A DNA stretch of 64,000 bases from Roseinatronobacter alkalisoli (GTDB taxonomy: Bacteria > Pseudomonadota > Alphaproteobacteria > Rhodobacterales > Rhodobacteraceae). Made by a program: the position numbers and the translations under genes. This document shows, piece after piece, positions 564 to 64,000 of the stretch. The DNA is taken from assembly GCF_028745735.1 (NCBI RefSeq), contig NZ_JAQZSM010000007.1, positions 62,001 through 126,000 on the forward strand, given 5' to 3'. The notes below the pieces were generated by a model. That model had not been told where the DNA came from, ran no database searches, and worked only from the letters and a program-made list of their open reading frames with translations. The stretch's first letter is position 1. The number at the start of each line of letters is the position of its first letter.

Positions 564-785
564 CCCAAAGGCGCGGAGCAAAGGCCGCAGGGCTTGAAGG
601 GACCGTCGCGCCAGTGGCGCGGCGAAAGCCCGGAAAACGCGCCACCGGCGGGCCGTCCCGCGGCCCGCCGGTGGCGCTGATGACACGCCAAGCCAATGAT
701 GCAGGAATTATGCCGCCTGCATAAAGTGAACTTATCCCACGTCGGACCGGCAGACCCCGGCCCGACCTGTGTCGCGGGCTTTGTG
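564..785 (+). repeat. Dispersed hairpin repeat, copy 1 (long form)
   Basis: Member of the dispersed intergenic family. It has the end block CCCAAAGGCGCGGAGC, the optional 45-bp module with a GCGCC-AGT-GGCGC hairpin (607-621), then the best stem of the family: a perfect 17-bp pair 639-655/661-677 around loop TCCCG. The core GCCTGCATAAAGTGAACTT and the block GGACCGGCAGACCCCGGCC follow, and it ends GCGGGCTTTGTG. It lies between convergent genes. Confidence 0.9.
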
Positions 786-815
786 TGTCGTCGCCCCACC
801 GGATGCCACGACAGC

Positions 816-2261
816 CTATTGCGCTGCGTTGTCCCAGCCGGAAACGGATTTCACTTCCAGAAAGTCCTCGATGCCCCAGATGCCGCCTTCGCGCCCGTTG
901 CCCGAATGTTTCATCCCGCCGAAGGGCGCGCCTGCGCCGCGTGACTTGCCGTTCATCTCAACCATGCCCGCGCGCAATTGCCGCGCCAGCCGGTTGCGGC
1001 GCGCGCCGTCACTGCTCTGGACATAATTGGTCAGGCCATAAACCGTATCATTGGCGATGCGCAGCGCGTCGGCTTCTGAATCGAACGGAATGATCGACAG
1101 GACCGGCCCGAAAATTTCCTCTCGGGCGATGGTCATGTCATTGCTGACATCGGCAAACACGGTCGGGCGCACGAAATAGCCGCGATTCATGCCCTCTGGC
1201 CGTCCCAGCCCGCCCGCGACCAGCCGCGCGCCTTCGGATATGCCCTTGGCGATCAGGTCCTGAATCTTGTTGAACTGCGCTTCGCTGACCACCGGGCCGA
1301 TGTGGCGGCCCTGCGCGCTGGCGGGGCCGACAGGGGTGGCCATGGCCACCTCGCGCGCCGTGTCCACAGCGCGGTCATAGGCGCTGCGTTCCACCAGCAT
1401 ACGGGTGGGGGCGTTGCAGGACTGGCCTGAATTGTTGAAGCAATGCTGCACGCCGCGCTTCACTGCCGCGTCATCGGCATCCGCGAAAATCAGGTTTGCG
1501 CCCTTGCCACCCAGTTCCAGATGCACCCGTTTCAGCGTGTCGGCGGCATTCTTGGAAATCGCAATGCCCGCGCGGGTGGACCCGGTGAAGCTGACCATAT
1601 CGACATCCCGGTGGGTGGAAAGCTGCGTGCCCACACCCGCGCCATCGCCGTTGACCATATTGTAAACCCCCGGCGGGGTTCCGGCCTCGTGCAGGATTTC
1701 CGACCAGATAATTGATGACAGCGGCGCAATTTCAGACGGTTTCAGCACCATGGTGCAGCCCGCCAGCAGGGCCGGGATCACCTTCAGGGTGACCTGATTC
1801 ATCGGCCAGTTCCAGGGCGTGATCAGCGCGCAGACGCCGACAGCTTCGCGGATGATGCGGTCATCGGGGGCATGCTCGCCAAGCGGTTCGATAAAACGGA
1901 TATGGTCAAACGCTGTGATGAAATTGCCGATATGGCTGGCCCCCGCGCCGACCTGCGAATTGCGCGCCATATCGATGGGCGCGCCCATTTCAAGGCTGAT
2001 CGCCTGTGCCATGTCATCGGCGCGGCGGGCATAGACATCGCTGATACGCTTGACCAGTTCCAGCCGGTCGGCGGGGGCGGTATGCATCCAGCCGGGCAGG
2101 GCGGCCTGCGCGGCAGCCACAGCGGCATCAGTATCGGCCTGCCCGCCAAGGGAAATCACCGCGCAGGACTCCTCGGTCGAGGGGTCAATGACCGCCAGAT
2201 CACGCCCGTCCTGCGGCGCGACCCATTCCCCGTTGATATAGAATTTGCGTTTGTCCAGCAT
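816..2261 (-). CDS. Aldehyde dehydrogenase family protein
   Basis: NAD(P)-dependent oxidation of an aldehyde to an acid in the cytoplasm. The protein is about 481 residues, a full ALDH length. It has TPWNWP near 150, the KPSE motif near 175, SFTGST near 225, the general base Glu in LELGGKG near 249 and the catalytic Cys in NNSGQSCNAPTR near 282. I chose ATG 2261 because a GGGAGG ribosome site sits just upstream; a GTG one codon earlier is also possible. It stands alone and converges on the ABC gene across repeat copy 1. The substrate is unknown; family resemblance is to broad-range aldehyde dehydrogenases. Confidence 0.93.
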   Translation of the reverse strand: MLDKRKFYINGEWVAPQDGRDLAVIDPSTEESCAVISLGGQADTDAAVAAAQAALPGWMHTAPADRLELVKRISDVYARRADDMAQAISLEMGAPIDMARNSQVGAGASHIGNFITAFDHIRFIEPLGEHAPDDRIIREAVGVCALITPWNWPMNQVTLKVIPALLAGCTMVLKPSEIAPLSSIIWSEILHEAGTPPGVYNMVNGDGAGVGTQLSTHRDVDMVSFTGSTRAGIAISKNAADTLKRVHLELGGKGANLIFADADDAAVKRGVQHCFNNSGQSCNAPTRMLVERSAYDRAVDTAREVAMATPVGPASAQGRHIGPVVSEAQFNKIQDLIAKGISEGARLVAGGLGRPEGMNRGYFVRPTVFADVSNDMTIAREEIFGPVLSIIPFDSEADALRIANDTVYGLTNYVQSSDGARRNRLARQLRAGMVEMNGKSRGAGAPFGGMKHSGNGREGGIWGIEDFLEVKSVSGWDNAAQ

Positions 2262-2331
2262 CACACCCTCCCGCGTTGCACATGTTCACTATCTTGCATC
2301 CGGGGGGCGGGGTTTCAAGGGACAGCGCGCA

Positions 2332-3036
2332 TCAGCGCAGCGAGATCACCTTGCGGTCAATCGCCAGCATATAGCCTTGCCGCGCGATATTGCGCACCAG
2401 AACTTCGCTGATCAGCTGGTTGCCCAGCGTGTCGCGCAGCCGCTTGATGCGGGTGGCGCCCGCCGCTTCGTCGCAATCGGTGATGTCGCGGCCGGAAATC
2501 ACGGATTCGATGGCGGCGCCGGTCAGCACTTCATCATCAATGCAGGCTTCGGCCAGCACGGCCAGCGTTTCAACGGCAGCGGGCGTCAGGCGGAATTCCA
2601 TGTCATTCAGCGCGACCGTATTGGTGGCGCGGTCGATCACCAGTTGCGACACCTGCAACCCCTGTTTTTCGACCTGCACCATGCGCCGGTTCAGCGTGAT
2701 CAGCACAACAATCACCACGAAGGACGTGATCAGAAGCCCGGTGGCAAACACCAGCAACACGAAAATCACCACCCGGTAGGAGATCAGCGTTTCGGAAAAT
2801 GCCGTGCCCGACTGCGCCAGAATTTCCAGCAGCTTCAGTTCCGCCTGGCTGGTCAGATCGGCGTTTTCAACGAACACACGTTCCACGCGCGCATTGAAGG
2901 CCCCGGCATCGGGCAGGTGCAGAAACAATGCCACCGCGGCCAGTGCCAGCACGCCCACAATCGCGACAATGCCCCAGACAACCGCGCGGTTGCCCATGCG
3001 CGCCAGATCACTGGCGGAGATGGATGGCCCCTGCAT
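2332..3036 (-). CDS. Membrane-anchored winged-helix transcription regulator
   Basis: Protein of 234 residues with two hydrophobic helices (about residues 17-40 and 95-120) that bracket a short, probably periplasmic loop. A C-terminal cytoplasmic domain of about 95 residues looks like an OmpR/ToxR-type winged helix (VIDRATNTVALNDMEFRLTP opening, IKRLRDTLG recognition-like helix, YMLAI closing strand). ToxR has the DNA-binding domain first and the membrane helix after; here the order is reversed. The start at 3036 is set by an AGGAG site; a longer reading would overlap the next gene almost completely. It overlaps the small secreted-protein gene upstream by 29 bases, so the two are probably cotranscribed. 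Targets unknown. Confidence 0.75.
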   Translation of the reverse strand: MQGPSISASDLARMGNRAVVWGIVAIVGVLALAAVALFLHLPDAGAFNARVERVFVENADLTSQAELKLLEILAQSGTAFSETLISYRVVIFVLLVFATGLLITSFVVIVVLITLNRRMVQVEKQGLQVSQLVIDRATNTVALNDMEFRLTPAAVETLAVLAEACIDDEVLTGAAIESVISGRDITDCDEAAGATRIKRLRDTLGNQLISEVLVRNIARQGYMLAIDRKVISLR

Positions 3037-3298
3037 TGACGCTCCTGCGTTGGAATTCGGCTTCCCCAAAGATGGATTCAATTTGTAGAAGGGTCCAGCC
3101 GCTTCGTGAAATGACAGGTTCGGCATAATTGCGTGCGGCCTGCGGTGATGTGCAGGCCGCCTGCGGCAATTCAATGATGCCATATTGCAGGCGCAACGGG
3201 TTGTCCTGCTTGGCCTTGTAATCCGCGTAACACTGGGCCGAGGCTTGTCCCGCAAGCGCCAGAACCAGAAAAGCAGCGGTCAGGAATGTGGTTTTCAT
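3008..3298 (-). CDS. Small secreted protein of unknown function
   Basis: A 96-residue protein with a clear Sec signal peptide: MKTT, a hydrophobic stretch, then AGQASAQ as a probable cleavage site near residue 21. The mature part carries two Cys, which could form a disulfide in the periplasm. No family recognised. Its 3' end overlaps the start of the membrane-anchored regulator, suggesting translational coupling and a possible sensor or accessory role, which is only inference. The ribosome site before the start is weak. Confidence 0.7.
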   Translation of the reverse strand: MKTTFLTAAFLVLALAGQASAQCYADYKAKQDNPLRLQYGIIELPQAACTSPQAARNYAEPVISRSGWTLLQIESIFGEAEFQRRSVNAGAIHLRQ

Positions 3299-3447
3299 GC
3301 CGGAACCATCGCACCAGTGATCGCGTTATTCAATATCAGCCACCCTGTGGGGAGGATGTTATCGGATAACATGCGGGCGTTATTGCGTGACGGGACCGGG
3401 CAGGCGCAGGGTCATGCCATGGCCCGTTTACGAAAGGAACCCGAGGC

Positions 3448-4140
3448 ATGAGTAATTTATTCAGCAACCTGAGAACACGGACGACCGGTGCCCTGATGGC
3501 AGCAGGTGTCGCCATGGGCGCAATGACATTGCCCGCAACACCCGCGCAGGCCAATGACGATGCGCTGGTGAAATTCCTGTTGGGGGCCGCTGCAGTCGCG
3601 ATTGTCGTGCATGCCGCGCGGTCTGATGGCGGCAGCAGCAATCGCGGCGGCAACCGGGGCCGCCCCCCACAGAACAGCCGCGAACTGCCCGCCCATTGCC
3701 AGGAAACATGGTCGGTGCGTAACCGCAACATCGCGCTTTACAACGCGCAATGCCTGAATGATGCAGGGTTGCGGCACCTGCCGCGCCATTGTCTGGAAAA
3801 CTCGCGCACCAATCGCGGACATCGCAGCGTTTATCGCGCGGCCTGTCTGCATGATGCGGGCTACTACCCTGAACGCGCCGGGCGTCCGGGCCGTGACCAC
3901 CCGCGCCCGGTTCCGCCGCGCGGTGGTGGTGGTGGCTGGCAGGACGGCATGCTTCTGCCGCAGCAATGTCTGATATCCTATCGCTATGGTGGGCAAACAC
4001 TGGCAGGCTATCGCGCGTCTTGTCTGGAACAACACCGTGTTCGTGACCTGCCACGCACCTGTCAGGTGCGCAGCACCACCGGCACGATCTATTCCGCGCA
4101 ATGCCTGACGGAACGCGGATATCGCACCCGCAACCGTTGA
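3448..4140 (+). CDS. Exported Cys-rich repeat protein of unknown function
   Basis: A 230-residue protein with an N-terminal signal (residues about 12-36, ending PATPAQA), a second hydrophobic stretch near 42-55 and Gly/Arg/Pro-rich linkers. The mature part holds four copies of a motif of about 27 residues: LPxxC, 10-12 residues with a Tyr, then AxCLxxxGxR or a close variant. The Cys come in regular pairs, so each unit probably holds one disulfide in the periplasm. Function unknown; the arrangement suggests a structural or binding role. A GAAAGGA ribosome site precedes the ATG. It is followed by rnhB after 40 bases. Confidence 0.72.
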
Positions 4141-4180
4141 TGGTTGCACTGGTCCGGGTGGTTGGGGCAATACATGCCCC

Positions 4181-4804
4181 ATGACCCCGGCAGCAGAACC
4201 CGATTATGAACATGAGCGCCTTGCAGCAATGCAAGGCGCGCGCCGCGTTGTCGGCGTGGATGAAGTGGGGCGCGGGCCGCTTTGCGGGCCGGTCACGGCG
4301 GCTGCGGTCTGGCTGGACCCTGCCGCGCTGCCTGCGGGGCTGGCGGATTCCAAACGTCTGAGCGCGCAGGCACGCGAGCGCGTGTTTGCCGCCATCATGG
4401 CCAGCGCCGATGTGGGCATCGGCCATGCCACCCCCGCCGAGATTGACGCAATCAACATCCTGCAGGCGACCTATCTGGCGATGCAGCGCGCCATTGCCGC
4501 GCTGCGCGTGCCGCCTGACCATCTGCTGATCGACGGCAACCGCCTGCCGCCCGCGCTGCAATGTCCCGCGCAGGCTGTGGTCAAGGGGGACGGACGGGTT
4601 CTGTCCATCGCGGCGGCGTCCATTATCGCCAAGGTCACGCGCGACGCGATCATGGCGGAACTGGCCCTTCGCTACCCCGGTTATGGTTGGGAGGTGAACG
4701 CAGGTTATCCGACAAAGCGTCACAAAAATGCCATAGCAGATTTGGGTATCACCCCAGAGCATAGACGTTCATTCGCCCCCATACGCAAAATCTTGTGTCC
4801 ATAG
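4181..4804 (+). CDS. rnhB: Ribonuclease HII
   Basis: Cleaves the RNA strand of RNA-DNA hybrids and single ribonucleotides in DNA, in the cytoplasm. At 207 residues it is a normal RNase HII. The active-site residues are visible: Asp27 and Glu28 in DEVGRGP, Asp118 in LIDGN, and the later carboxylate in KVTRDAIM. The family motif [17 protein letters not shown] is intact. It lies just before ccrM, the same rnhB-ccrM order as in other alphaproteobacteria, but a regulatory gap of 115 bases with GANTC sites separates them. Confidence 0.95.
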
Positions 4805-4833
4805 GTGACGTGAACAAAGTTTTTCAACCAACT

Positions 4834-4871
4834 GATTCAAAAAGAAATTGACGGCGAATCACCTTTGACTC
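4834..4871 (+). promoter_or_regulatory. Cluster of three GANTC sites before ccrM
   Basis: GATTC (4834-4838), GAATC (4856-4860) and GACTC (4867-4871) lie within 38 bases, 49-82 bases before the ccrM start. GANTC is the target of CcrM itself. In Caulobacter, methylation of such sites in its own promoter limits ccrM transcription to hemimethylated DNA after replication, so the same feedback is a fair inference here. I did not find a convincing CtrA site. Confidence 0.6.
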
Positions 4872-4907
4872 ATCTTAGGCCCATAACAAGCGCACCAAGC
4901 GCAATAA

Positions 4908-6023
<1,116 letters not shown>

Positions 6024-6079
6024 TCCCGCAGTATTACAGTTACCGCCGGTGTCCCAGTTCCCGCCGGGACACCCACTGA

Positions 6080-6105
6080 CCCCGCCTGCTTGGCGGGGTT
6101 TTTTT
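6080..6105 (+). terminator. Rho-independent terminator after ccrM
   Basis: Stem CCCCGCC (6080-6086), loop TGCTT, stem GGCGGGG (6092-6098), followed by seven T. It lies 57 bases after the ccrM stop and fits classical termination of ccrM. Confidence 0.9.
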
Positions 6106-6153
6106 GTGCCGCAGCGGTCGCAGGATTCTGATAGCGGGGGTGGCACTGGCACC

Positions 6154-6187
6154 AAGCCCGCGCCAGCCTGCGGCCTTTGTTCCGCGC
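6154..6187 (-). repeat. Mini-copy of the dispersed repeat (ends only)
   Basis: 34 bases that join the two ends of the family: AAGCCCGCGCCAG, found at one end of full copies, runs directly into CCTGCGGCCTTTGTTCCGCGC, found at the other. The entire interior of about 140 bases is missing. It has the reverse orientation and lies in the 302-base gap between ccrM and the next gene; apart from the terminator nothing else is seen there. Confidence 0.55.
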
Positions 6188-6325
6188 AAATATCCGGTCA
6201 GCCGGGGCTCTCCCTTTCCCGCAAACCACATGCGAACACTGCACCAACACGGAACCCCCGGCCCGCAGGGCAGGGGGTGACATGATAAACCTGCGGCGCC
6301 AGCCGCACTATCAGATCACGCCGCG

Positions 6326-6661
6326 TCAGCCCGCCAACTGGTCCCAGCAGTCCAGCGCCTTGCCCGCATACATCACAGCCGGGCCGCCGCCCATCTGGAT
6401 GCACATGCCAAGCACATCTGCCAGTTCTTCGCGGCTGGCGCCCGCCTTCATCAGCGCCTCGACATGAAAGGCGATGCACGGCTCGCAGCGCACGGCGACC
6501 GCAATGCCCAATGCCACGAATTCCTTTTCCTTGGCCCCCAGCACGCCGCTTGTCTTGGCCGCCATCGACAATGCGCCAAACCCTTTCATCGTGTCGGGAA
6601 TGGCTTTGGCCAGAGTGCGGGACTTGTCGCGGGTTTCAGCGATGAAGGCGGGGTAATCCAT
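6326..6661 (-). CDS. Carboxymuconolactone decarboxylase / AhpD-like protein
   Basis: A 111-residue protein of the AhpD-like fold. The redox motif is present as CEPC followed by IAFHVEAL, the arrangement (CxxC with His three residues on) seen in alkylhydroperoxidase AhpD-type members rather than in the true decarboxylase. A thiol-based peroxide or disulfide role in the cytoplasm is likely. The start at 6661 has a GAGGTC ribosome site; an ATG four codons earlier is in the same frame. It lies behind chrR on the same strand, so it could be read through from the stress regulon, but a gap of 91 bases intervenes. Confidence 0.85.
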   Translation of the reverse strand: MDYPAFIAETRDKSRTLAKAIPDTMKGFGALSMAAKTSGVLGAKEKEFVALGIAVAVRCEPCIAFHVEALMKAGASREELADVLGMCIQMGGGPAVMYAGKALDCWDQLAG

Positions 6662-6752
6662 GTCAGACCTCATATATCATGTTGTGCATATGATGTGCCT
6701 GACGCGCGCCGCCCTTGCGTTGATGCAGATCAAGCCGCGCGCAGGGGCCAGG

Positions 6753-7400: not shown

Positions 7401-7402
7401 CG

Positions 7403-7990: not shown

Positions 7991-8075
7991 GGCCCGGCCA
8001 TCTGCGCCCACAGAAACTGCGGCGTGCCCGGGCTGTCTTGTGGTTGCATCGTCACAGATCTGATCAAACATGCAA

Positions 8076-8105
8076 GTCTTACGTCCACAAGGGGCAGTTG
8101 GATCA
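8076..8105 (-). promoter_or_regulatory. Sigma-E-like promoter for rpoE-chrR
   Basis: Read on the minus strand: TGATCC (8105-8100), an 18-base spacer, then TAAGAC (8081-8076). This matches the RpoE promoter pattern known from Rhodobacter (TGATCC, 18 bases, TAAGA-like) and implies autoactivation of rpoE. The predicted start of transcription is about 8069. Confidence 0.75.
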
Positions 8106-8141
8106 GAATGTCCGCCCGCGCGCGGAAGATGTTTTTTGCAG

Positions 8142-8171
8142 TGATCTGCATGCAGGGGGCGGACGTATAAG
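8142..8171 (+). promoter_or_regulatory. Sigma-E-like promoter for the FAD/DUF1365 operon
   Basis: TGATCT (8142-8147), an 18-base spacer, TATAAG (8166-8171), 32 bases before the start of the FAD-oxidoreductase gene. It diverges from the rpoE promoter 37 bases away and would place the five-gene operon directly under RpoE. Confidence 0.7.
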
Positions 8172-8203
8172 GTCACAACGACAAAAAACCGGAGCTTCCC
8201 CGC

Positions 8204-12926: not shown

Positions 12927-12972
12927 GGAGGCGCGTACCGGAATCGAACCGGTGTACACGGATTTGCAATCC
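12927..12972 (-). pseudogene. Displaced 3' half of tRNA-Cys (left island boundary)
   Basis: Read on the minus strand this runs from the anticodon loop (GATTGCAAATC) through a complete T arm (ACCGG-TTCGATT-CCGGT) to acceptor strand ACGCGCC, discriminator T and CCG instead of CCA. No 5' half exists to its right. It shares a 20-base exact match (12953-12972) with the intact tRNA-Cys at 25889-25962. This is the expected scar of an element that inserted in the anticodon arm and replaced the 3' half of the tRNA. Confidence 0.8.
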
Positions 12973-13056
12973 TGATTAATCCCTTTGAAAACAACATGCA
13001 TTGTGCAAAATTCAGGCGGAGACGATGGGAATCAAATTGGCCCATTGCAAGCATTC

Positions 13057-18967: not shown

Positions 18968-19458
18968 TGTTCCCCCTGAAACGGTGCGATCAGGCAGTAA
19001 TCTTGCTCACGAAAGCGCACTGCTAAATCTATACAGTGCTGTCCCAAATCCACGCCGAGCGTCGATTCGCCACATTCGGACCATGCGCGGGCCCACTCGC
19101 CCCCAGTGCATCGTTCTTCTTCGCAAGTGTAGGTATAGGTGTTACCGGTCGGGATATGCGCGGCAACATGGATTGTTTCCGGCCCTTCAAGTTCGAGCGC
19201 GTCAAATGCGGCCAAAAGACGGTCAACATCCTCTGCGCTTTCCAGGGTTGACATCCCTATATTGGCTCCGATGAGGGGTGTAAGGCGAAAATACTCCATA
19301 TGTGCTTGCTCTGAGCACACCAGCCGACCCGAAGGCGATATCACCTCGCCGCGCTGAGCGCTCTGTTGTATTCGATACCTAGCAAACTCCCCTAGGGCTA
19401 CTGCTAAGGCAACCAATCCAAGCACCAAGAATAAAGCGATTTTTACAACTCTAGCCAT
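18964..19458 (-). CDS. Putative periplasmic immunity protein (paralogue 1)
   Basis: A 164-residue protein with one N-terminal hydrophobic helix (residues 4-24, KIALFLVLGLVALAVALG) and an exported acidic domain with six Cys (SEQAHMEYF, TCEEERCTGG, QDYCLIAPF). It is paralogous to the 152-residue protein downstream. It starts eleven bases after the vgrG C-terminal gene, with GAGGGAA as ribosome site (ATG 19458; a GTG one codon earlier is possible), and overlaps the truncated effector duplicate by four bases. Confidence 0.58.
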   Translation of the reverse strand: MARVVKIALFLVLGLVALAVALGEFARYRIQQSAQRGEVISPSGRLVCSEQAHMEYFRLTPLIGANIGMSTLESAEDVDRLLAAFDALELEGPETIHVAAHIPTGNTYTYTCEEERCTGGEWARAWSECGESTLGVDLGQHCIDLAVRFREQDYCLIAPFQGEQ

Positions 19459-19468
19459 CACCGTTCCC

Positions 19469-20596
19469 TCAATTCAGATTAATCTTTGAAGCCGACATCT
19501 TGATTTCCTTGCCGCCCTCGACCTCGACACCGTTTTCAAAATCGAGGTAGAGCGTGTCCCCTTTGAGCCTGATGAAACCATCCGCTGTCATTCTCAACTC
19601 AGCTTTCCCGACCCGGACTTCAATCTCATTCCCGCTGGTGACAGTAACCGTGTCCCCCGCATCGATGGACATTTGCGACCCGGAAACAAGTTGGATAGAG
19701 TTGCCAGCCTGTTCAACCAAAGTGCTGCCAACCTGCACGGATTTGCTTACGCCGATGATCTGCGATTTCACACCTGGCGTTGTTTCTGAAATCGCGGCAT
19801 CTGCGAAGAGAGAGAATGTTCCCGACCCGGTATCCCGCAGACCGGGAACCGGAAGTGTTGCTGCGATCTTTCCAATTCCTTGCGACAGGGTTCGGCTCAA
19901 CGAGTTAAGAACCCGGCCTTTGCCACTCTTGCCGACATGCAGCATGATACTGCCATGCACGGCCTCACTATGATTCCCGTCGACTTCGATGACTTTGTGG
20001 TTGCCAACCGATTGCACCCAGTTTTTATCGATGCGCTCCGTATGATTGTTGCGGACTTTCTCATTCCTGTCCTTCTGCGCATGCAGGAACACTTCTTCGC
20101 GCCCCTTCTCATCCTCAAACCGCAGCTCGTTGAAGCCCGTGCCCTGATGGGTGTCCGTCTTGAAGGTGCTGCGCGTCTTATGCTCCGGCAATTCATACGG
20201 CACCTTGTTGCGCCCGTTATAGACGCATCCCGTCACCAGTGGCTGGTCGGGGTCACCGTCGAGGAACTCCACCACCACCTCCATGCCCACGCGCGGGATC
20301 ACCATGCCGCCCCAGCCATTACCCGCCCAGGATTGCGATACACGGCAGCGCATCGAATTAGCCTTGTTGAGGTCCCAGTGGAAGCGCACCAGAATGCGGC
20401 CGTATTCGTCGCAGTCGATCTCTTCGCCTTCAGCGCCCACCACCATCGCCGTTTGCGGGCCGCGCACATCGGCGAGGGGGGGCTTGCGTTCGGGCATCCT
20501 TTGCATGCGCATAATCCTCTCGTCAGTTTCCGCGATAGTCCGATGCAACGCTTGATTGGCCTGTTGTTGCGCCACTCTGTCGGAAGGATCGGCCAT
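19469..20596 (-). CDS. VgrG C-terminal part (OB fold and beta-helix spike)
   Basis: The spike shaft half of a type VI VgrG, 375 residues from ATG 20596. It starts with the gp5-like OB segment (TAMVVGAEGEEIDCDEYGR, then ILVRFHWD), continues with the core QSWAGNGWGGMVIPRVGMEV and GDPDQPLVTGCVYN, then the repeat-rich beta-helix to SASKINLN. The frame is open for 32 more codons upstream (to a TGA near 20690) without a good start, and the gp27-like half is encoded separately. So this is either a fragment of a broken vgrG or a separately made half. Confidence 0.8.
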   Translation of the reverse strand: MADPSDRVAQQQANQALHRTIAETDERIMRMQRMPERKPPLADVRGPQTAMVVGAEGEEIDCDEYGRILVRFHWDLNKANSMRCRVSQSWAGNGWGGMVIPRVGMEVVVEFLDGDPDQPLVTGCVYNGRNKVPYELPEHKTRSTFKTDTHQGTGFNELRFEDEKGREEVFLHAQKDRNEKVRNNHTERIDKNWVQSVGNHKVIEVDGNHSEAVHGSIMLHVGKSGKGRVLNSLSRTLSQGIGKIAATLPVPGLRDTGSGTFSLFADAAISETTPGVKSQIIGVSKSVQVGSTLVEQAGNSIQLVSGSQMSIDAGDTVTVTSGNEIEVRVGKAELRMTADGFIRLKGDTLYLDFENGVEVEGGKEIKMSASKINLN

Positions 20597-25573: not shown

Positions 25574-25901
25574 GTGTGGCCGCTACATCGACGCCAGTCT
25601 GCGCGGGACTGAATCCGAGCTGAGTGAAATCAAGATCAATCCGTTTCCAAGGCGCTACAACATCAAGCCGACCCAGGAGGTTTACGTTCTCCGGGATGGT
25701 GCATTCCCATGCGCGCGCCGGGGTCTGATCCCGAGCTGGACAAAGAAAGGTACGCTGAAGGACTGGCGCGTGACAACACCCAAGGCAAGCCCGCCAGAAA
25801 GCGCGCGCGAGGGAAACGCAGGGCAGGCGGGACAGAACGTGACCGAGCATGAATGTGCAAACCAGAACCGGCAAATTCTGCTAAGTTCTGGAGGCGAGTA
25901 G
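25572..25901 (+). pseudogene. Truncated SRAP (YedK/HMCES-type) gene at the island edge
   Basis: Starts MCGRYIDASLRG with the catalytic Cys2, then NIKPTQEVYVLRDG and RRGLIPSWTKKG, the first 60-65 residues of a SOS-response-associated peptidase (a protein that crosslinks to abasic sites in single-stranded DNA). The rest of the usual 200 or more residues, including the conserved His and Glu, is missing. The frame wanders on through non-family sequence and stops inside the tRNA-Cys gene (25899-25901), so the element boundary has cut it. Confidence 0.6.
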
Positions 25902-25962
25902 GAGAATCGAACTCCTGTACACGGATTTGCAATCCGCTGCGTAACCACTCCGCCAACTCGCC
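25889..25962 (-). tRNA. tRNA-Cys (GCA)
   Basis: Complete cloverleaf on the minus strand: acceptor GGCGAGT/ACTCGCC, anticodon stem GCGGA/TCCGT with loop TTGCAAA (anticodon GCA), T arm AGGAG-TTCGATT-CTCCT, discriminator T as expected for tRNA-Cys, and an encoded CCA. Its anticodon arm is the attachment site of the 12.9-kb island. The position-5 pair is A:T here, while the displaced 3' half at 12.93 kb would need C at position 5. Confidence 0.95.
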
Positions 25963-28570: not shown

Positions 28571-28748
28571 GCAAAGCCCGCGCCACCGGTGGGCCGGGGT
28601 CTGCCGGTCCCACGATATAGAAGTTCACTTTATGCAGGCGGCACAATCCTGAGTTCAAAGTCTTGGCATAACGCCAGCGAAACCGGCAGGCCGCGGGACG
28701 GCCCACCGGTGGCGCGGCGGGCTGCGCCCTTTGTTCCGCGCCTTTGGG
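28571..28748 (-). repeat. Dispersed hairpin repeat, copy 2 (short form)
   Basis: Minus-oriented copy lacking the 45-bp module. Arms are of the C:G type: CCACCGGTGG/CTGCCGGT around the TCCCG loop, and ACCGGCAG with CCACCGGTGG at the end block, so all four arms agree. The core is GCCTGCATAAAGTGAACTT. It sits between endolysin and holin genes that are otherwise expected to form one operon. Confidence 0.9.
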
Positions 28749-32856: not shown

Positions 32857-33040
32857 CCCAAGGCGCGGAACAAAGGCCGCGAGGCTGGCCCGCGCCATAG
32901 GTCTGGCCGTCCTGCGGCCTGCAGATTGCGCTGATGCCACGCAAAGCCTTTGAACTCAGGAGTATGCCGCCTGCATAAAGTGAACTTCTACAACGCCGGA
33001 CCGGCAGACCCCGGCCAGACCTGTGGCGCGGGCTTTGTGC
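32857..33040 (+). repeat. Dispersed hairpin repeat, copy 3 (short form, diverged)
   Basis: Plus-oriented copy. Ends and core (TATGCCGCCTGCATAAAGTGAACTT) are well kept, but the central stem is decayed (CCATAGGTCTGGCCG against CGGCCTGCAGATTG) and the end block reads CCAGACCTGTGGCG. It fills most of the 525-base gap between DUF2155 and NDUFA12 genes; nothing else is seen in that gap. Confidence 0.85.
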
Positions 33041-34280: not shown

Positions 34281-34457
34281 ATCAAGCCCGCGCTATCGGT
34301 GGGCCGGGGACTGCCGATCCCACGTTCAAAGAATGCAGTTTATGCAGGCGGAATACTCCGGCATCCAAGGACTGAACTGACACTGGCGTAATCGGCAGGC
34401 CGCGGGACGGCCCGCCGATGGCGCGGCGGCCTGCGGCCTTGATTCCGCGCCTTTGGG
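34281..34457 (-). repeat. Dispersed hairpin repeat, copy 4 (short form)
   Basis: Minus-oriented copy with arms of the T:A type: ATCGGCGGGCCG/CGGCCTGCCGAT and ATCGGCAG with CCGAT at the end block, so all four arms changed together compared with copy 2. The core is altered to GCCTGCATAAACTGCATT. Flanked by GCCTGAAGGGGA on the left and TTCAGGC on the right, as an outer inverted pair. It lies between msrB and selO. Confidence 0.9.
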
Positions 34458-45691: not shown

Positions 45692-45909
45692 CGAAGCCCG
45701 CGCCAGCGGTGGGCCGGGGACTGCCGGTCCGGCATTGGCGGGATTCACTTTATGCTGGCTCCATATTCCGGCTTTCAAGGTGTGAGTCAGCACCAGCAAA
45801 ACCGGCAGGCCGCGGGACGGCCCACCGGTGGCGCGTTTTCCGGGCTTTCGCCGCGCCACTGGCGCGACGGTCCCTTCAAACCCTGCGGCCTTGATTCCGC
45901 GCTTTTGGG
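45692..45909 (-). repeat. Dispersed hairpin repeat, copy 5 (long form)
   Basis: Minus-oriented copy with the 45-bp module (stem GCGCC-ACT-GGCGC). Main stem ACCGGTGGGCCG/CGGCCTGCCGGT (C:G type). The core is changed to GCCAGCATAAAGTGAATCC. An outer inverted pair GGTTTGAAA (45664-45672) and TTTCAAACC (45925-45933) flanks it. It fills most of the 441-base gap before the glycosyltransferase gene. Confidence 0.9.
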
Positions 45910-49260: not shown

Positions 49261-49479
49261 CTAAAAGCGCGGAGCAAAGGCCGATAGGGTTTGAAGGGAC
49301 CGTCGCGCCAGTGGCGCGGCGAAAGCCCGGAAAACGCGCCATCGGCGGGCCGTCCCGCGGCCTGCCGATTACGCAGATGTCACGCCAAGCCTTGAAAGCC
49401 GGAGTATGGAGCCTGCATAAAGTGAACTTCTCCCACGCCGGACCGGCAGACCCCGGCCCACCGATAGCGCGGGCTTGAT
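49261..49479 (+). repeat. Dispersed hairpin repeat, copy 6 (long form)
   Basis: Plus-oriented copy with the 45-bp module. Main stem ATCGGCGGGCCG/CGGCCTGCCGAT (T:A type); the end block also has CCGAT. The core is GAGCCTGCATAAAGTGAACTT. An outer inverted pair GCCTGAAGGGGA (about 49238) and TCCCCTTCAGGC (about 49492) is exact over 12 bases. It lies between convergent genes. Confidence 0.92.
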
Positions 49480-52680: not shown

Positions 52681-52764
52681 GACCAAACCCCCTGTCATAT
52701 GTTACTTATGTTTGGAAATGCCCGCACTCTTTTTGGTCCGGGTGGCCCTGACGGGCATGGAAAT

Positions 52765-52790: not shown

Positions 52791-52800
52791 GGTATTAACT

Positions 52801-54428: not shown

Positions 54429-54557
54429 TGGGGGTATCCTTATGTTGCGGGGTGAATGTTACAGACTGCGCGCAAAGCCGCGCCAGCGGTGGGGGATGGA
54501 GCAGCCTGAAACCATCCATTCGCGGGTGGTGCCGGTCTGAAACGGGTGGTGGCGAAT

Positions 54558-54733
54558 CCCAAAGCGCGGAACAAGGGCGAAGCCCGCCGCGCCACCGGTG
54601 GGCCGTCCCGCGGCCTGCCGGTTTTGCTGAGGTCATGCCAGGCATTGAAGGTCGGAGTATGGAGCCTGCATAAATTGAACTCCTATAGCGTGGGACCGGC
54701 AGACCCCGGCCCACCGCTGGCGCGGGCTTTGTG
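54558..54733 (+). repeat. Dispersed hairpin repeat, copy 7 (short form)
   Basis: Plus-oriented copy. Main stem ACCGGTGGGCCG/CGGCCTGCCGGT; the core is GAGCCTGCATAAATTGAACTC; end block CCACCGCTGGCGCGGGC. A partial outer inverted pair GGTCTGA (about 54533) and TCAGACC (about 54757) flanks it. It is the only copy between divergently transcribed genes (VOC and ileS), in a 565-base gap. Confidence 0.88.
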
Positions 54734-54945: not shown

Positions 54946-54993
54946 TTCCCTTTGGCGTCTGCATGTTTTCCCCAATTCGCAAGGTATCCGAAA

Positions 54994-58005: not shown

Positions 58006-58079
58006 AACGCGGGCGCGGGCGTGACTTGCCGCCCCCGCGCCCTATCTGCGCGCCCCATGGCAACAGGGGGGCGCAGGCC

Positions 58080-58745
58080 ATGAAACGGGCGTTGGTAATT
58101 GGTGCGTCTGGCGGAATAGGCAGCGCGCTGGCCGCCGCCTTGCAGGGGCAGGGCTGGCAGGTGACGGGCCTGTCACGCAGCAAGGACGGGCTGGACATTA
58201 CGCGCGAGCCGTCGGTTGCCGAACACATAGGCGCGCTGACCGGCGTGTTTCAGCGCATTGTCATTGCCACCGGCGCGCTGGAAATTGACGGCCACCGCCC
58301 TGAAAAGGCACTCAAACAGATCGACCCGGCGGCGATGGCTGCGCAATTTGCGCTTAACGCCATCGGGCCGGCGCTGGTGCTGAAACACGCGGCCCGGTTG
58401 CTGGCACGCGATGAACCGGCGGTTCTGGCGGCATTGTCGGCGCGGGTGGGGTCCATCGGCGACAATCGCGCGGGCGGCTGGCACAGCTACCGTGCCGCCA
58501 AAGCCGCGTTGAACCAGATCATCCGCTGTGCGGCAATTGAACTGGCCCGCACGCATGGGCAGGCCGCTTGCGTGGCGCTGCATCCGGGCACCGTGGCCAC
58601 GCCATTTACAGCGAAATACCTTGACCGTCATCCCACCGTTGCGCCCGATATGGCCGCGCAACGCTTGCTGGCGGTCATGGACGGCCTGACCCCTGCTGAC
58701 ACGGGCCAGTTTTTCGATTACGCGCGAAAGCCGGTGCCATGGTGA
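58080..58745 (+). CDS. Short-chain dehydrogenase (C-factor-like)
   Basis: A 221-residue SDR with nucleotide-binding GASGGIG (near 8-14), RIVIATGALEIDGHRPEKAL as strand 4, active-site Ser in ALSARVGSIGDN and Tyr/Lys in SYRAAKAALNQ, followed by LHPGTVATPFTAKYL. The whole resembles the CsgA/C-factor-type group of short SDRs of uncertain substrate. It begins 74 bases after ileS and may be cotranscribed. Confidence 0.9.
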   Translation: MKRALVIGASGGIGSALAAALQGQGWQVTGLSRSKDGLDITREPSVAEHIGALTGVFQRIVIATGALEIDGHRPEKALKQIDPAAMAAQFALNAIGPALVLKHAARLLARDEPAVLAALSARVGSIGDNRAGGWHSYRAAKAALNQIIRCAAIELARTHGQAACVALHPGTVATPFTAKYLDRHPTVAPDMAAQRLLAVMDGLTPADTGQFFDYARKPVPW

Positions 58746-58825
58746 AACCGGGGCCGGCGGCCTGCCATGCGCGCCGCGTGATCAAGGCACTTGCCGCTGG
58801 GCTGCGGCTCGCCTATCCCTAGGGC

Positions 58826-59929
58826 ATGAACACACCGCGCTATACCGAATTGCTGCAATCACTGCCCGCCACTGTGCCCTTTGTCGGGCCGGAGGCCCAT
58901 ATGCGTGCCGCCGGTCGCCCGTTTGCGGCGCGGCTGGGGGCCAATGAAAGCGGCTTTGGCCCGTCGCCGCGCGCTGTGGCCGCAATGCAGGCCGCGGCAT
59001 CCGATGTCTGGATGTATGGCGACAGCGAATGCCATGATCTGCGCCACGCACTTGCCGCGTATCATGGGGTGGGGGCGGAAAATATCATCATCGGCGAAGG
59101 GATCGACGGGTTGCTGGGCCTGGTGGTGCGCATGCTGGTGGACAAGGGCGATCCGGTCGTCACATCGGACGGGGCCTATCCGACCTTCAATTACCATGTG
59201 GCGGGGTTTGGCGGTGTGCTGCACAAGGTGCCTTACCGCGATGATCATCAGGACCCTGCAGCCCTGCTGACCCGCGCGGAAGAAACCGGCGCGAAACTGC
59301 TGTATTTCTGCAACCCCGACAACCCGATGGGAAGCTGGCATTCCGCGCGCATTGTCCAGCGCATGATTGATGCGGTGCCCGACGGCACGCTTCTGGTGCT
59401 GGACGAAGCCTATGTCGATGCTGCCCCGGATGGGACAGCGCCCGCGCTGAACCCGGATGATGCGCGTGTTATCCGCATGCGCACATTTTCCAAACTATAC
59501 GGCATGGCCGGGCTGCGGGTGGGCTATGCCATTGGCGCGGCCCCGCTGATTGCCATGTTCGACCGCATCCGCAACCATTTCGGCATGGGGCGCATTGCGC
59601 AGGCGGGCGCGCTGGCAGCCCTGCAGGACCAGGCGTGGCTGGCCCATGTGCAGGCACAGCTTGACCGCGCACGCGCGCATCTGGCGCAGATTGCTGCTGA
59701 TAACGGCTTGCACGCGCTGCCATCGGCCACGAATTTCGTGACCATGGATTGCGGGCGCGACGGGGATTTCGCGCGCGCGCTGCTGCGCGAATTGATGGCG
59801 CGCGATGTGTTCGTGCGCATGCCATTTGTCGCGCCCATGGACCGCTGCATCCGTGTCAGCGCAGGCCCGGAGGCGGATTTGCAGGTTTTCGCGCGCGTTC
59901 TGCCGGAGGCATTGCGCGCCTGCGCCTGA
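58826..59929 (+). CDS. HisC-like pyridoxal phosphate aminotransferase
   Basis: A 367-residue fold-type I aminotransferase of the histidinol-phosphate branch. Cofactor residues: NESGFGPSPRAVAAMQ near 40, CNPDNPMGSWH with the PLP-binding Asn near 170, LDEAYVD with Asp near 192, and the Schiff-base Lys in RTFSKLYGMAGLRVGYAIG near 215. A distinct biosynthetic hisC usually sits with his or tyr genes; here it stands alone, so the substrate (histidinol phosphate or an aromatic acid) is open. Confidence 0.9.
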   Translation: MNTPRYTELLQSLPATVPFVGPEAHMRAAGRPFAARLGANESGFGPSPRAVAAMQAAASDVWMYGDSECHDLRHALAAYHGVGAENIIIGEGIDGLLGLVVRMLVDKGDPVVTSDGAYPTFNYHVAGFGGVLHKVPYRDDHQDPAALLTRAEETGAKLLYFCNPDNPMGSWHSARIVQRMIDAVPDGTLLVLDEAYVDAAPDGTAPALNPDDARVIRMRTFSKLYGMAGLRVGYAIGAAPLIAMFDRIRNHFGMGRIAQAGALAALQDQAWLAHVQAQLDRARAHLAQIAADNGLHALPSATNFVTMDCGRDGDFARALLRELMARDVFVRMPFVAPMDRCIRVSAGPEADLQVFARVLPEALRACA

Positions 59930-60007
59930 TCCGTCACGCAGACGTGTCTTTCCTTCCGGTTGATGGAAGGTGCTATTGCAGCTTCCCATATAAAACCGGA
60001 GGATGAC

Positions 60008-60436
60008 ATGGCTTTGAAAACATCAGTTCTGACAGGGATAGCAACCTTTGTCGCAGGCGGGGTGCTGGTTGCGGGGATCGGCTTCGCGTCCAGTCATATG
60101 TCGCATGGCGATCATGCGGCCGGGCATGCGGGCGATGATGCGCATGCTGGTCATCAGATGGCCCCTGCGCCCGAAGGGGCCAGTGACGCAACGCTGGCCT
60201 ATATCGCGGCCAATGCCGCCATGCATGAGGCGATGGATATCGACTTCACCGGCGATGCGGATGCGGATTTCATTCTTGGCATGATCCCGCATCATGAAGG
60301 CGCGGTGGCCATGGCTGAAATCGTGCTGGAATACGGGCAGGACCCGGAAGTTGCTGAACTGGCACGCGAAGTGATTGCAGCCCAGCAACAGGAAATCACC
60401 TGGATGCGCGACTGGCTGGCGCGGCGCGGGTATTGA
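60008..60436 (+). CDS. DUF305 exported protein
   Basis: A 142-residue protein with a signal or anchor helix (residues 8-25), a His/Asp/Gly-rich linker ([20 protein letters not shown]) and a DUF305 helical domain with [20 protein letters not shown], then [19 protein letters not shown] and a closing [13 protein letters not shown]. The many His and Met suggest copper or other metal binding in the periplasm, as proposed for the family. GGAGG before ATG 60008. Confidence 0.9.
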
Positions 60437-60520
60437 TGTGCCGCCGGTCCTTGTGGTGCCATCATATCGGGTGGCACGGCAAGGCTGGTTGAACCTGGTG
60501 TAAAGCGGATGTTGGCGCCC

Positions 60521-60700
60521 CCCAAAGCGCGGAGCAAAGGCCGCAAGGCCGCCGCGTAATCGGCGGGCCGTCCCGCGGCCTGTAGATTACGCTGGCGTTA
60601 ATGCCAGCCTTGGATGTCGGAGCATGCCGCCTGCATAAAGTGAACTTCTCCGACGTGGGACCGGTAGTCCCCGGCCCGCCGATGGCGCGGGCTTTGTGCG
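60521..60700 (+). repeat. Dispersed hairpin repeat, copy 8 (short form)
   Basis: Plus-oriented copy. The main stem TAATCGGCGGGCCG/CGGCCTGTAGATTA extends the T:A type by further pairs (TAATC/GATTA); the end block has CCGATGG. The core is GCCGCCTGCATAAAGTGAACTT. It lies in the 486-base gap between the DUF305 and MFS genes; the remaining part of the gap shows nothing certain. Confidence 0.9.
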
Positions 60701-60922
60701 CAACGCAGGGTTCACATCGCGCCGCGCAAACTCTCGGCCTGATCTGATCAAGGCCCCGGCGTTCGGCAAGGGGGGGCATCTGCGCGGCGTTTGCTGACAT
60801 AATATTGCCCCTGCGCATATCGCCCGCGCCCAAATTACCCGATCCGTGGTCGCGCATGGATTGCAAATGTTTCACAGGTTCACTACGCATGTTCAGGTTT
60901 GCACAGGAATCGGGCATTTCGC

Positions 60923-62101
60923 ATGAAAACCGGCCTTTTCTTTCTGGTCATCGGCTATCTGCTCAGCCAGTTCTACCGCTCGTTTCTGGCGGTTCTGGCG
61001 GGTATGCTGCAAAGTGATATCGGCGTCAGCGCTGATGATCTGGCGCTGTCATCGGGGGTGTGGTTTCTGGCCTTCGCGCTGATGCAACTGCCCGTGGGTT
61101 GGGCGCTGGACCGTTTTGGCCCGCGCCGCAGCACTGCGCTGATTCTGGGGATCGGCGGAACCGCCGGTGCGCTGCTTATGGGACTGGCGCAGACTGCGGT
61201 GCATGTGCATCTGGCAATGGTGCTGCTGGGGGTGGGGTGTGCGCCGGTGCTGATGGCGGCCTATTACATTTTCGCGCGCAGCTATCCGCCCGCGATCTTT
61301 GCCACGCTGGCAGGCGCGGTGATCGGGTTCGGCAGCCTTGGCAATATTCTGGGCGCATGGCCGCTGGCCTGGGCAGCAGAGATGTTCGGCTGGCGTGAAA
61401 CCCTGCTGGCGCTGGCCGCACTCACTGCGCTGATATCCGCGCTGCTGTGGCGGATGATCGAAGACCCGCCGGTTCTGGCCACGCCTGAAGGGCAAAAAGG
61501 CAGCCTGCTGGATTTGCTGAAAATTCCCGCACTCTGGCTTATTCTGCCCTTGCTGGCAGTGAATTACGCGCCCGCAGCCGGATTGCGCGGGTTATGGGCG
61601 GGGCCGTATTTCACTGATGTCTATGGGGCGGGGGCAAGCCAGGTGGGGCAGATCACGCTGGTAATGGCTTGCGCGATGATTCTGGGCAATTTTGCCTATG
61701 GGCCGCTGGACCGGCTGCTGGGGACACGCAAATGGGTCATTCTGGCAGGGAACGGGCTGGGCGGGCTGTGCCTGATGGCGTTGTGGCTGGTGCCGGTGCC
61801 GGGGTTCTGGACCAGCGCGCTGATGCTGGCGGCCATCGGTCTGTTCGGGGCCTCATTTCCGATGATGATGGCGCATGGCCGCAGCTTCTTTCCTGCCCAT
61901 ATGATGGGGCGGGGGGTGACGCTGCTGAACCTGTTTTCGATTGGCGGGGTGGGGGTGTTGCAGATGATCAGCGGGCGGGTGCATTCGGCCACCCCCCCAG
62001 CGCCGCCAGAGGCCCCCTATCAGGCAGTATTCCTGTTTTTCGGGCTGTTCCTGCTGGCGGGCTGTGTGATCTATGCCTTTGCCAGGGACCGTGTGGATTG
62101 A
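60923..62101 (+). CDS. MFS transporter
   Basis: A 392-residue protein with 12 predicted helices. The first loop reads SQFYRSFLAVLAGMLQSDIG, and the MFS signature after helix 2 is LPVGWALDRFGPRRSTALIL (GxxxDRxGxR form). SDIG...LSSGVWFLAFALMQ resembles prokaryotic permeases of unassigned substrate. The start at 60923 lacks a strong ribosome site; an upstream in-frame ATG at 60899 is possible. Its 3' end faces the aldehyde dehydrogenase gene. Confidence 0.87.
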   Translation: MKTGLFFLVIGYLLSQFYRSFLAVLAGMLQSDIGVSADDLALSSGVWFLAFALMQLPVGWALDRFGPRRSTALILGIGGTAGALLMGLAQTAVHVHLAMVLLGVGCAPVLMAAYYIFARSYPPAIFATLAGAVIGFGSLGNILGAWPLAWAAEMFGWRETLLALAALTALISALLWRMIEDPPVLATPEGQKGSLLDLLKIPALWLILPLLAVNYAPAAGLRGLWAGPYFTDVYGAGASQVGQITLVMACAMILGNFAYGPLDRLLGTRKWVILAGNGLGGLCLMALWLVPVPGFWTSALMLAAIGLFGASFPMMMAHGRSFFPAHMMGRGVTLLNLFSIGGVGVLQMISGRVHSATPPAPPEAPYQAVFLFFGLFLLAGCVIYAFARDRVD

Positions 62102-62166
62102 TGGACCCGGCGGCGGTTTTTCCTGAGGGGGGCCTTGGGTGGCTGCCGCCCCCCAAACCCCCTGCC

Positions 62167-62190
62167 GCAAGGGGGGCACGCCCCCCTTGC
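62167..62190. terminator. Strong hairpin between convergent genes
   Basis: Perfect 10-bp stem GCAAGGGGGG (62167-62176)/CCCCCCTTGC (62181-62190) around CACG. No T run, so its ability to terminate is uncertain, but its place between two 3' ends fits a two-way terminator or mRNA end. Confidence 0.5.
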
Positions 62191-62240
62191 GAAACCCCGG
62201 TGGATATTTGGACCAGACTGAAAGCAGCAAGGGCTGGGGT

Positions 62241-63728
62241 TCAGCCCCAGTCGCGGCAGACATATTTGATTTCGGTAAATGCCTCCATGCCCCAGCGCGC
62301 GCCTTCGCGCCCGAGCCCTGATTGTTTCATGCCGCCAAAGGGGATGGGTGCGCCGGTGACCTTGGTGCGGTTGACAGCAACCATGCCGAATTGCAGTGCC
62401 CGCGTCATGCGGTAGATGCGGCGCGGGTCCAGTGTGTGGACATAGGCCACAAGCCCGAATTCGGTCGCATTGGCGCGGGTGATGGCGCAGGATTCGGTGT
62501 CAAAGGGTGCAACGGCGGCAACGGGGCCGAAGGTTTCTTCATGCATGATGCTGGCATCGGTGGGGACATCGACCAGCAGGGTGGGTTTGTAATAAAGCGG
62601 CCCTTGCGCATCGCGCGCCCCGCCCACAAGGCAGCGTGCGCCGCGCGCCATGGCATCGGCCACATGGGTTTCCTGTTTGGCCACGGCGCGTTCATGCATC
62701 AACGGGCCGAGGTCGCAATCTTCCATGCCCGGACCAAGGGTCAGTTTGCGGATGGCGGCGGCGAAGCGGGTGCAGAATTCGTCATAGACGGGGCGTTGCA
62801 CCAGAAAGCGGTTCGCGCCCAGGCAATCCTGTCCGGTGGTGGCGAATTTCGCTTTCACCGCTTCTGTGACGGCGCGGTCCAGATCGGCATCGGCAAAGAC
62901 GATGAAGGGCGCATGTCCGCCCAGTTCCAGTACCAGCCGTTTGATGGTATCGGCCGATTGACGGTAGAGCAGGCGCCCGACTTCGGTGGAACCGGTGAAG
63001 GACAGCGCGCGCACGCGGGTATCCTGCGTCCATGTGCCGACGATTTCGGGCGCGTCCCCCGGCACGACATTCAGCACGCCCGCAGGGATGCCCGCGCGTT
63101 CGGCCAGCACGGCAAGCGCCAGCGCTGAAAGCGGCGTTTCCGCAGAGGGGTGCAGCACGCAGGTACAGCCCGCAGCCAGAGCGGCCGCGGCCTTGCGGGT
63201 GACCATGGCGCAGGGGAAATTCCATGGTGTGACAAGGGCCGCAACGCCCACCGGTTCGCGCCAGAGTTCCACTTCGGCATCGGGCAGATGCGATGTGACG
63301 CCGCGGATATCGGGGCGCTTGGCTTCTTCGGCGTAGAATTCCACGAACCCTGCGCCATAGTCGATTTCGCCGCGCGCCTCCGACAGGGGTTTGCCCTGTT
63401 CGGCCACCATGATCAGGGCCAGATCTTCGCGGTTGGCATTGATCAGGTCGAACCAACGGCGCAGGGCGGTGCTGCGGGTCTGGGGCAGGGCGGTGGACCA
63501 GTCTGCGAAGGCGGCCTGCGCGGCATCCACGGCGGCGCTTGCATCGGGGGCGCGCATGCGGGCCACGCGCGCGCAGACCGTGCCGGTGGCGGGGTCTGTG
63601 ACAGCGAAATCCGACGCAGCACCACGCCACCCGGCGATATAGGCCTCCGTGCGCAGCAGAGATGGATCTGCCAGCAGGGAAGGCAGGTCGGGGGATTGTG
63701 TCGCGGTGGAGCGGGGGCTGCGCGTCAT
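62241..63728 (-). CDS. Aldehyde dehydrogenase, succinate-semialdehyde type
   Basis: A 495-residue ALDH closest in pattern to succinate-semialdehyde/glutarate-semialdehyde dehydrogenases: AEQGKPLSEARGEIDYGAGF near 110-130, TPWNFPCAMVTRKAAAALAA, SFTGSTEVGRLLYRQ, general base Glu268 in LELGGH and catalytic Cys302 in TTGQDCLGANR. Odd: the highly conserved KP(S/A)E motif reads LHPSAETPLSA, so the cofactor-contacting Lys is His193. ATG 63728 with GAAGGA is used; a longer frame to 63890 has no similarity. Substrate and cofactor are not certain. Confidence 0.9.
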   Translation of the reverse strand: MTRSPRSTATQSPDLPSLLADPSLLRTEAYIAGWRGAASDFAVTDPATGTVCARVARMRAPDASAAVDAAQAAFADWSTALPQTRSTALRRWFDLINANREDLALIMVAEQGKPLSEARGEIDYGAGFVEFYAEEAKRPDIRGVTSHLPDAEVELWREPVGVAALVTPWNFPCAMVTRKAAAALAAGCTCVLHPSAETPLSALALAVLAERAGIPAGVLNVVPGDAPEIVGTWTQDTRVRALSFTGSTEVGRLLYRQSADTIKRLVLELGGHAPFIVFADADLDRAVTEAVKAKFATTGQDCLGANRFLVQRPVYDEFCTRFAAAIRKLTLGPGMEDCDLGPLMHERAVAKQETHVADAMARGARCLVGGARDAQGPLYYKPTLLVDVPTDASIMHEETFGPVAAVAPFDTESCAITRANATEFGLVAYVHTLDPRRIYRMTRALQFGMVAVNRTKVTGAPIPFGGMKQSGLGREGARWGMEAFTEIKYVCRDWG

Positions 63729-63885
63729 GGCTGGTCCTTCGGTCAGGTGAGTTGCTGGCCCAGCATAGCGCCGCTGGGCCAGAGGATTCGTTGCTGTGAC
63801 CGGGCCGACCGCAGGGGAATGTTCCGAATTGCCCCTGAATATCCGATGATCCGTCCAGAAGGGGGGAAACGTGAACAATGCGTTG

Positions 63886-64000
63886 CGCATAAAGTCCGCG
63901 CTATCGGCGGGCCGGGGTCTGCCGGTCCCACGATATAGAAGTTAACTTTATGCAGGCGGCATACTTCGACATCAAAGGCTTGGCGTGTCGCTGGCGCTAT
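63886..64000 (-). repeat. Dispersed hairpin repeat, copy 9 (cut by window end)
   Basis: The 3' half of a minus-oriented copy: end block GCGGACTTTATGCGC side, CCGAT arm, ACCGGCAG arm, and core GCCGCCTGCATAAAGTTAACTT; the main stem lies beyond the window. It lies upstream of the aldehyde dehydrogenase gene; the 157 bases between show no clear promoter. Confidence 0.85.

Follow-up and report, generated by a model that had tools for sequence, protein, structure and literature searches.

Small palindromic repeats are common, and how such repeats persist is poorly known. Insertion of the YPAL element takes place just downstream of stop codons, and the evolution of REP sequences by gene conversion is an old idea, reportedly treated by Higgins in 1988. 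The available portions of PMC2229807 describe YPAL/RU-2 of Yersinia as an intergenic element of ~168 bp whose inverted repeats are internal rather than terminal, and those of PMC3116915 and PMC2817692 describe REPINs or BIMEs, which occur with RAYT, as extragenic, high-copy elements made of two inverted palindromic units and a spacer. Judged by these descriptions, both resemble the repeat analyzed here. It was noticed in a 64,000-nucleotide (nt) stretch of Roseinatronobacter alkalisoli (contig NZ_JAQZSM010000007.1, positions 62,001 to 126,000; hereafter the window), where an earlier note, made from the letters alone, had pointed to a dense family of intergenic hairpin repeats.

A covariance-model search of the genome and its relatives, which that note had proposed, found the family genome-wide and across many Rhodobacterales genera. 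The reading we favor, with confidence about midway between belief and doubt, is that these are Rhodobacterales-wide, REPIN- or YPAL-like non-autonomous palindromic repeats without a RAYT, whose occupied sites persist while the occupants are rewritten by recombination or gene conversion. The original spread would have involved transposition of a folded single strand by a putative enzyme. An occupied site would then tend to stay occupied while its occupant recombines with, or is converted by, other copies in that genome, and this could happen in either orientation because the repeat is nearly palindromic. Ectopic recombination guided by the near-palindrome would thus explain why sites are shared and their occupants exchanged; we infer that gene conversion is the main route of exchange.

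Shared sites with changing occupants

The covariance model, R1, was built from 22 copies, 5 of which have an extra module of 45 nt and 17 of which do not; some of the copies come from the window. It gave at least 140 matches in the 4.84-Mb genome, with 150 of 4814 candidates scored. Removal of 13 matches before counting (8 opposite-strand echoes and 5 weak ones) left 127 copies, of which 126 were placed in loci; 119 of those, at 150 nt or more, were full copies. Independently of any model, the core word GCATAAAGTGAACTT occurs 62 times in the genome with at most one mismatch (28 forward and 34 reverse), and the reversed word is absent.

Both flanks of 24 R. alkalisoli copies could be mapped to the genome G033, where the site held a copy in the same orientation in 13 cases, a copy in the opposite orientation in 10 and no copy in 1. 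Seen from the G033 side, 24 copies faced 10 in the same orientation, 9 in the opposite orientation, 2 sites with two R. alkalisoli copies each and 3 empty sites; the comparison includes two cases of two R. alkalisoli copies facing one G033 copy. Site partners were no more alike than copies paired at random between the genomes, with identities of 0.832 (12 same orientation) and 0.843 (10 opposite orientation) against 0.829 for all cross-genome pairs, and their similarity ranks spanned 3 to 50 of 52 (22 comparisons; the ranking omits one short copy). The suggestion that relatives might show the copies as ancestral, alignable sequence holds for the places and mostly not for what fills them: sites are often common to the species, and at ~85% flank identity the occupants are mostly not alignable as orthologues. 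Which way an occupant faces seems to be random.

Comparison of G033 with the metagenome-assembled genome (MAG) JAFIEO01 covered 14 sites, most of them with flank identities of 93–99%. Seven sites carried the same copy in the same orientation (core identity 0.92–0.98), one carried a same-orientation copy with a replaced loop (0.903), one was ambiguous, and five carried copies in opposite orientation that were 0.86–0.90 identical. In the same-orientation pair L180:8050 and L036, the outer parts are common and the loop differs. At one of the five opposite-orientation sites, a DDE transposase gene (L041:5725-7197; Pfam DUF772 and DDE_Tnp_1_6) adjoins the repeat, the G033 site consisting of the repeat only.

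The opposite orientations at many shared sites invite the idea that a recombinase flips the copy in place between its inverted arms, in the manner of a phase switch, and at L189:15880 homology does stop inside the arms on both sides. The identities given above, however, (0.86–0.90 for flipped against 0.92–0.98 for unflipped copies) largely refute in-place inversion, which we consider highly improbable. Two plasmids of Pseudosulfitobacter pseudonitzschiae, whose matching parts are 96.7% identical over 88% of the query, add a case in which it is excluded, since different subfamilies stand at one site: in the gap between a GntR gene and a RelE-type gene, one plasmid has a plus copy (143 bits) and the other a minus copy (73 bits), and the minus copy aligns with the G036 subfamily at a score of 101 (shuffle maximum 30) as against 45 with its site partner. 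At a RepB site of the same species, a mini copy whose left flank differs stands opposite a full copy.

Within the window, all nine positions and the mini-copy listed in the earlier note were borne out, R1 finding eight full copies plus one more that is truncated at the window end. Since R1 was built partly from window copies, its scores here are high by construction; a listing of direct repeats and reading of the sequence also show the family. The copies and related features are:

571..779, + strand: core copy with the 45-nt module (R1, 135.3 bits)
6130..6187, - strand: mini-copy lacking most of the core (R1, a weak 26.6 bits, E 0.003; sequence read)
28576..28741, - strand: core copy (R1, 187.7 bits)
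32863..33033, + strand: core copy with the stem variant ATAGGTC/GACCTGT (R1, 171.5 bits; alignment)
34286..34450, - strand: core copy (R1, 176 bits)
45696..45902, - strand: core copy with the 45-nt module; opposite-orientation copy at the site in G033 and in the genome G028 (R1, 154.9 bits)
49267..49474, + strand: core copy with the 45-nt module; same-orientation copy in G028 (R1, 168.1 bits)
54470..54493, - strand: probable remnant, the 3' end of an older opposite-orientation copy (read by eye alongside G028, where a full minus copy occupies the place)
54564..54727, + strand: core copy; minus copy at the G028 site (R1, 175.2 bits)
60527..60692, + strand: core copy; none found at the counterpart site in G028 (R1, 175.3 bits)
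63894..64000, - strand: core copy cut at the window end (R1, 92.3 bits for the cut part); the full copy is contig C98:125894-126059

The reported density of one copy per 7 kb is accurate locally but not for the genome, where 127 copies in 4.84 Mb amount to one per 38 kb; the window is thus about five times denser than average.

Several of these sites can also be read as insertion turnover, that is, active transposition into 3'-end hairpins, older copies included, with old copies decaying or being deleted and favored sites being refilled in either orientation. The P. pseudonitzschiae site at which two subfamilies face opposite ways fits such turnover, as do the RepB-site mini copy, which with its other left flank lies beside the apparent end of an older copy, the minus-copy remnant adjoining 54564–54727, and the existence of empty sites (one R. 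alkalisoli copy empty in G033, three G033 copies empty in R. alkalisoli). We regard turnover as possible, though we would not expect it to prove the principal process. No transposase gene with matching terminal arms was seen in the genome, where a single arm motif was tested, and Y1 transposases numbered zero there, other enzyme classes not having been searched; among the 36 genomes matched by R1, one (G080) has a Y1 transposase over the cut-off. Neither was a clear target site duplication evident in the four pairs of filled and empty sites read by eye.

Turnover alone would also leave unexplained a module common to unlike copies. The longer copies are those with the 45-nt module, which follows the first 20–23 nt in 14 of the genome's 119 full copies; the window holds three of the 14. 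Among the 14 carriers the module is on average 98.1% identical, and letter-identical in 11, whereas the last 115 nt of the carriers are 77.9% alike, close to the 76.7% found between carriers and non-carriers. Every module match in the R. alkalisoli loci examined (14/14) lies within a repeat copy, and none was found in 1.08 Mb from two related genomes. The copies are thus mosaics of patches, and a near-identical module in otherwise unlike copies is most simply read as short tracts moving among copies already in place.

Several points weigh against persistence of sites with rewriting of their occupants. The sites in the G033 comparisons with R. alkalisoli and with the MAG were mostly fetched because they bear repeats, so that occupancy is biased upward. 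Blocks picked regardless of repeats gave four mappable sites, three occupied and one empty, with six further R. alkalisoli copies matched on one side only; between the window and G028, three of four sites were occupied. The module could itself be a site-specific insert. Homologous gene conversion is hard to reconcile with the pair of copies between the GntR and RelE-type genes of P. pseudonitzschiae, which deletion followed by new insertion fits better. Finally, when arms were paired within copies and between copies, the former did better at just one of seven offsets in R. alkalisoli (p 0.006) and at none of the offsets in G033, suggesting that arm complementarity is mostly family consensus; copy-specific pairing of the outer arms was accordingly set aside as mostly unsupported.

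Anatomy and alternative folds

The core of the repeat measures ~165 nt and consists of two inverted-repeat units on either side of a linker, together with a small hairpin at the 5' end. The linker contains the word ATAAA, which is nearly invariant at columns 120–124 of alignment A3 (51 cores from the studied clade and its relatives, selected with R1). The conserved ends described previously are real but understate the element, as conservation continues for ~45 nt past each core end; these outer flanks are rich in G on the 5' side and in C on the 3' side, and in the studied clade the outer part often has inverted arms, GGCCTGAAGGGGACGTT and AACGTCCCCTTCAGGCC. Six genome matches of ~70 nt lack the middle of the core. 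Two further places resemble arms joined across a single GCGCGG with the entire core gone, as expected for loss of the core between its GCGCGG ends. A search for arm-like sites in the genome returned 52, of which 43 lie beside listed copies, 2 form one solo hairpin and 7 are single (control 5).

The core can fold in two mutually exclusive ways that use the same columns, either into local hairpins or into a single long one. Across the 51 cores, the long-range fold has 93.5% of its cells paired, compared with 87.2% in shuffled and 26–47% in slid controls, and 13 of its pairs have changed on both sides, compared with 7.2 in shuffles. The local 5' hairpin, which, unlike the long hairpin, is not part of the R1 structure used to select the cores, reaches 95.7% paired cells (87.3% shuffled) and 5 doubly changed pairs (2.9 for shuffles, 17 of 500 attaining 5); its covariation score is 0.231 (0.086 for shuffles, 0 of 500 attaining 0.231). 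Related rows may beat shuffles even where there is no structure, a caveat that does not touch the slid controls. Pairing together with compensatory changes in both folds indicates that both are maintained. In one window copy with arms, the minimum-energy and centroid folds are these same two alternatives (z -3.9).

Two further structural candidates gained no support. A further local hairpin, located at the 3' end, had only 76.5% of its cells paired, and for the structured RNA that the earlier note had allowed for, reading the printed strand as an RNA showed no wobble support (15 G-T against 30 A-C cells in the extended fold, counted by hand).

Gene context and distribution

Copies are located at gene 3' ends, chiefly in convergent gaps. 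A crude gene caller placed 82 of 126 R. alkalisoli copies between convergent genes, 40 between tandem and 4 between divergent genes. By the same caller, the claim that copies never lie inside a gene proved nearly exact, 7 of 126 overlapping an open reading frame (ORF) by more than 20 nt and none by more than 87 nt. In G033, 37 of 54 copies were convergent, 16 tandem and 1 overlapped a gene, as against 22 convergent, 66 tandem and 38 divergent among 126 gaps of 100 nt or more taken without selection (Fisher p 3e-11), and all five annotated plasmid copies examined lay between convergent genes. The bias is less clear among 30 copies from more distant relatives (13 convergent, 11 tandem, 5 divergent, 1 overlapping), for which the gene caller had been trained on R. 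alkalisoli and some matches were weak. Along the G033 chromosome, runs of orientation are random (z 0.53) and positions indistinguishable from uniform (Kolmogorov–Smirnov p 0.19), yet spacing is uneven, one gap of 378 kb contrasting with a mean of 33 kb. This stretch (G033:C1:877799-1255964) holds no full-length copy and a single match of ~70 nt.

Such placement is compatible with an element that selection keeps for the sake of the genes beside it, where it might act as a bidirectional attenuator or protect mRNA 3' ends, with exchange tolerated and function independent of orientation. The strong convergent bias, the scarcity of divergent sites, the shared sites and the conserved folds would all suit this view, and so would the lack of an orientation preference in the tandem gaps of R. 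alkalisoli (20 same, 20 opposite). We nevertheless consider it unlikely. Avoidance of promoters alone could yield the convergent bias, and 113 of 244 order-level genomes have no match among the candidates scored, at most 11 per genome. An intrinsic terminator, tried as one such function, was rejected, because 66 of 188 incoming transcripts had terminator-like signals ahead of or within the repeat, little different from the 51 of 196 control 3' ends with such signals. We found no host function, and one that exists would need to work largely regardless of orientation. By analogy with the attC sites of integrons, convergent gaps might instead be docking places at which hairpins are swapped in either orientation by a putative dedicated recombinase that would read the folded strand and the ATAAA linker, across much of Rhodobacterales; we hold such a site-exchange system to be quite unlikely.

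R1 matched 36 of 147 relatives, 23 of the same genus and 13 of the same family, and none of ~57 genomes of the same class outside the family. A second model, R2, built from alignment A3, matched at least 131 of 244 order-level genomes and at least 64 of 100 genera, every one of them within the same family; these counts are lower bounds, as at most 11 candidates were scored per genome. The R2 matches listed are 161–169 nt long, a constancy partly imposed by a model fitted end to end. Named plasmid carriers are Roseinatronobacter sp. S2, P. pseudonitzschiae and Salipiger abyssi. Phage records gave no match at E 1e-5. An exact core pattern of the studied clade, too narrow for the family, occurred in one MAG only among 84,980 species genomes.

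Other features were seen in passing. A fragment resembling part of tRNA-Cys lies at 12927–12973 of the window, 13 kb from the tRNA-Cys gene (25889–25962) and in the same direction, and a gene with phage/type VI spike domains (19469–20596) is located between them. The fragment and the tRNA-Cys gene may mark the termini of an integrated island. A different palindromic repeat, of the TGCTCAAAACTGGGAACCGGTTTTGAGC type, occupies two intergenic places in G028 contig C47 (L170), at ~19200–19350 and 6300–6450.

Comparison with known repeat families

With a near-constant core in so many genera and relatives close enough for single sites to be followed, the family offers a testable case of repeats being rewritten in place, in either orientation, besides insertion and loss. 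The mobilizing enzyme, if one exists, cannot be a RAYT in R. alkalisoli and would be a new partner for bacterial hairpin repeats.

The earlier note knew of no named family with this design, and our searches agree. At gathering scores the window gave two tRNAs only in Rfam, the repeat having no match there or at E up to 5, and 19 copy-bearing loci gave two Rfam matches, far below the gathering scores. Among open-licence PMC articles we found no paper naming the family. Its proposed identity as a classical miniature inverted-repeat transposable element was not borne out, for neither sharp ends nor a clear target duplication was found, and the arms were not seen bounding a longer element.

CIR, the CcrM-associated intergenic repeats of Caulobacter and Brucella, share by description the alphaproteobacterial setting, the intergenic location, the two inverted-repeat arms with a linker and GANTC, according to the available portions of PMC2229807, which also give a length of ~110 bp and a conserved GANTC. 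In our alignment, GANTC stands at columns 6–10 in 30 of 51 cores, in keeping with a branch of the CIR; on the other hand, only 48 of 119 R. alkalisoli copies contain a GANTC anywhere, and R1 was without a match in the same-class genomes outside the family. That the repeat is such a branch seems to us barely credible. ERIC/IRU is likewise a conserved intergenic palindrome of a fixed length class (127 bp), found in a bacterial order and without a transposase of its own, but differs in its terminal TA and target duplications (PMC2229807, available portions), neither of which we saw in the Rhodobacterales repeat.

The label REP-like, also proposed at the outset, suits the architecture, with its inverted palindromic units, extragenic position, high copy number and two folds; membership of the REP/RAYT system is not supported, given the absence of Y1 transposases from the genome. 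REPINs, too, adopt two alternative folds, a long hairpin and a clover, according to a supplementary legend of PMC3116915. They differ from the Rhodobacterales repeat in that the latter has a linker core that is conserved, a core of nearly constant length and, in R. alkalisoli, no RAYT; its units, moreover, rarely end as GTAG-type REPs do, with GTAG within 14 nt of an end in 1 of 51 cores, although some published REPs have GTGG in its place (PMC3116915 and PMC2817692, in the portions available). YPAL resembles the repeat in not being A+T-rich, in lacking a terminal TA and in targets at or near dyad symmetry, and differs from it in a contiguous reading frame and in target duplications of 3–26 bp (all from the available portions of PMC2229807), of which we saw none. 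In architecture and placement taken together, YPAL and the REPINs are the closest of the known families.

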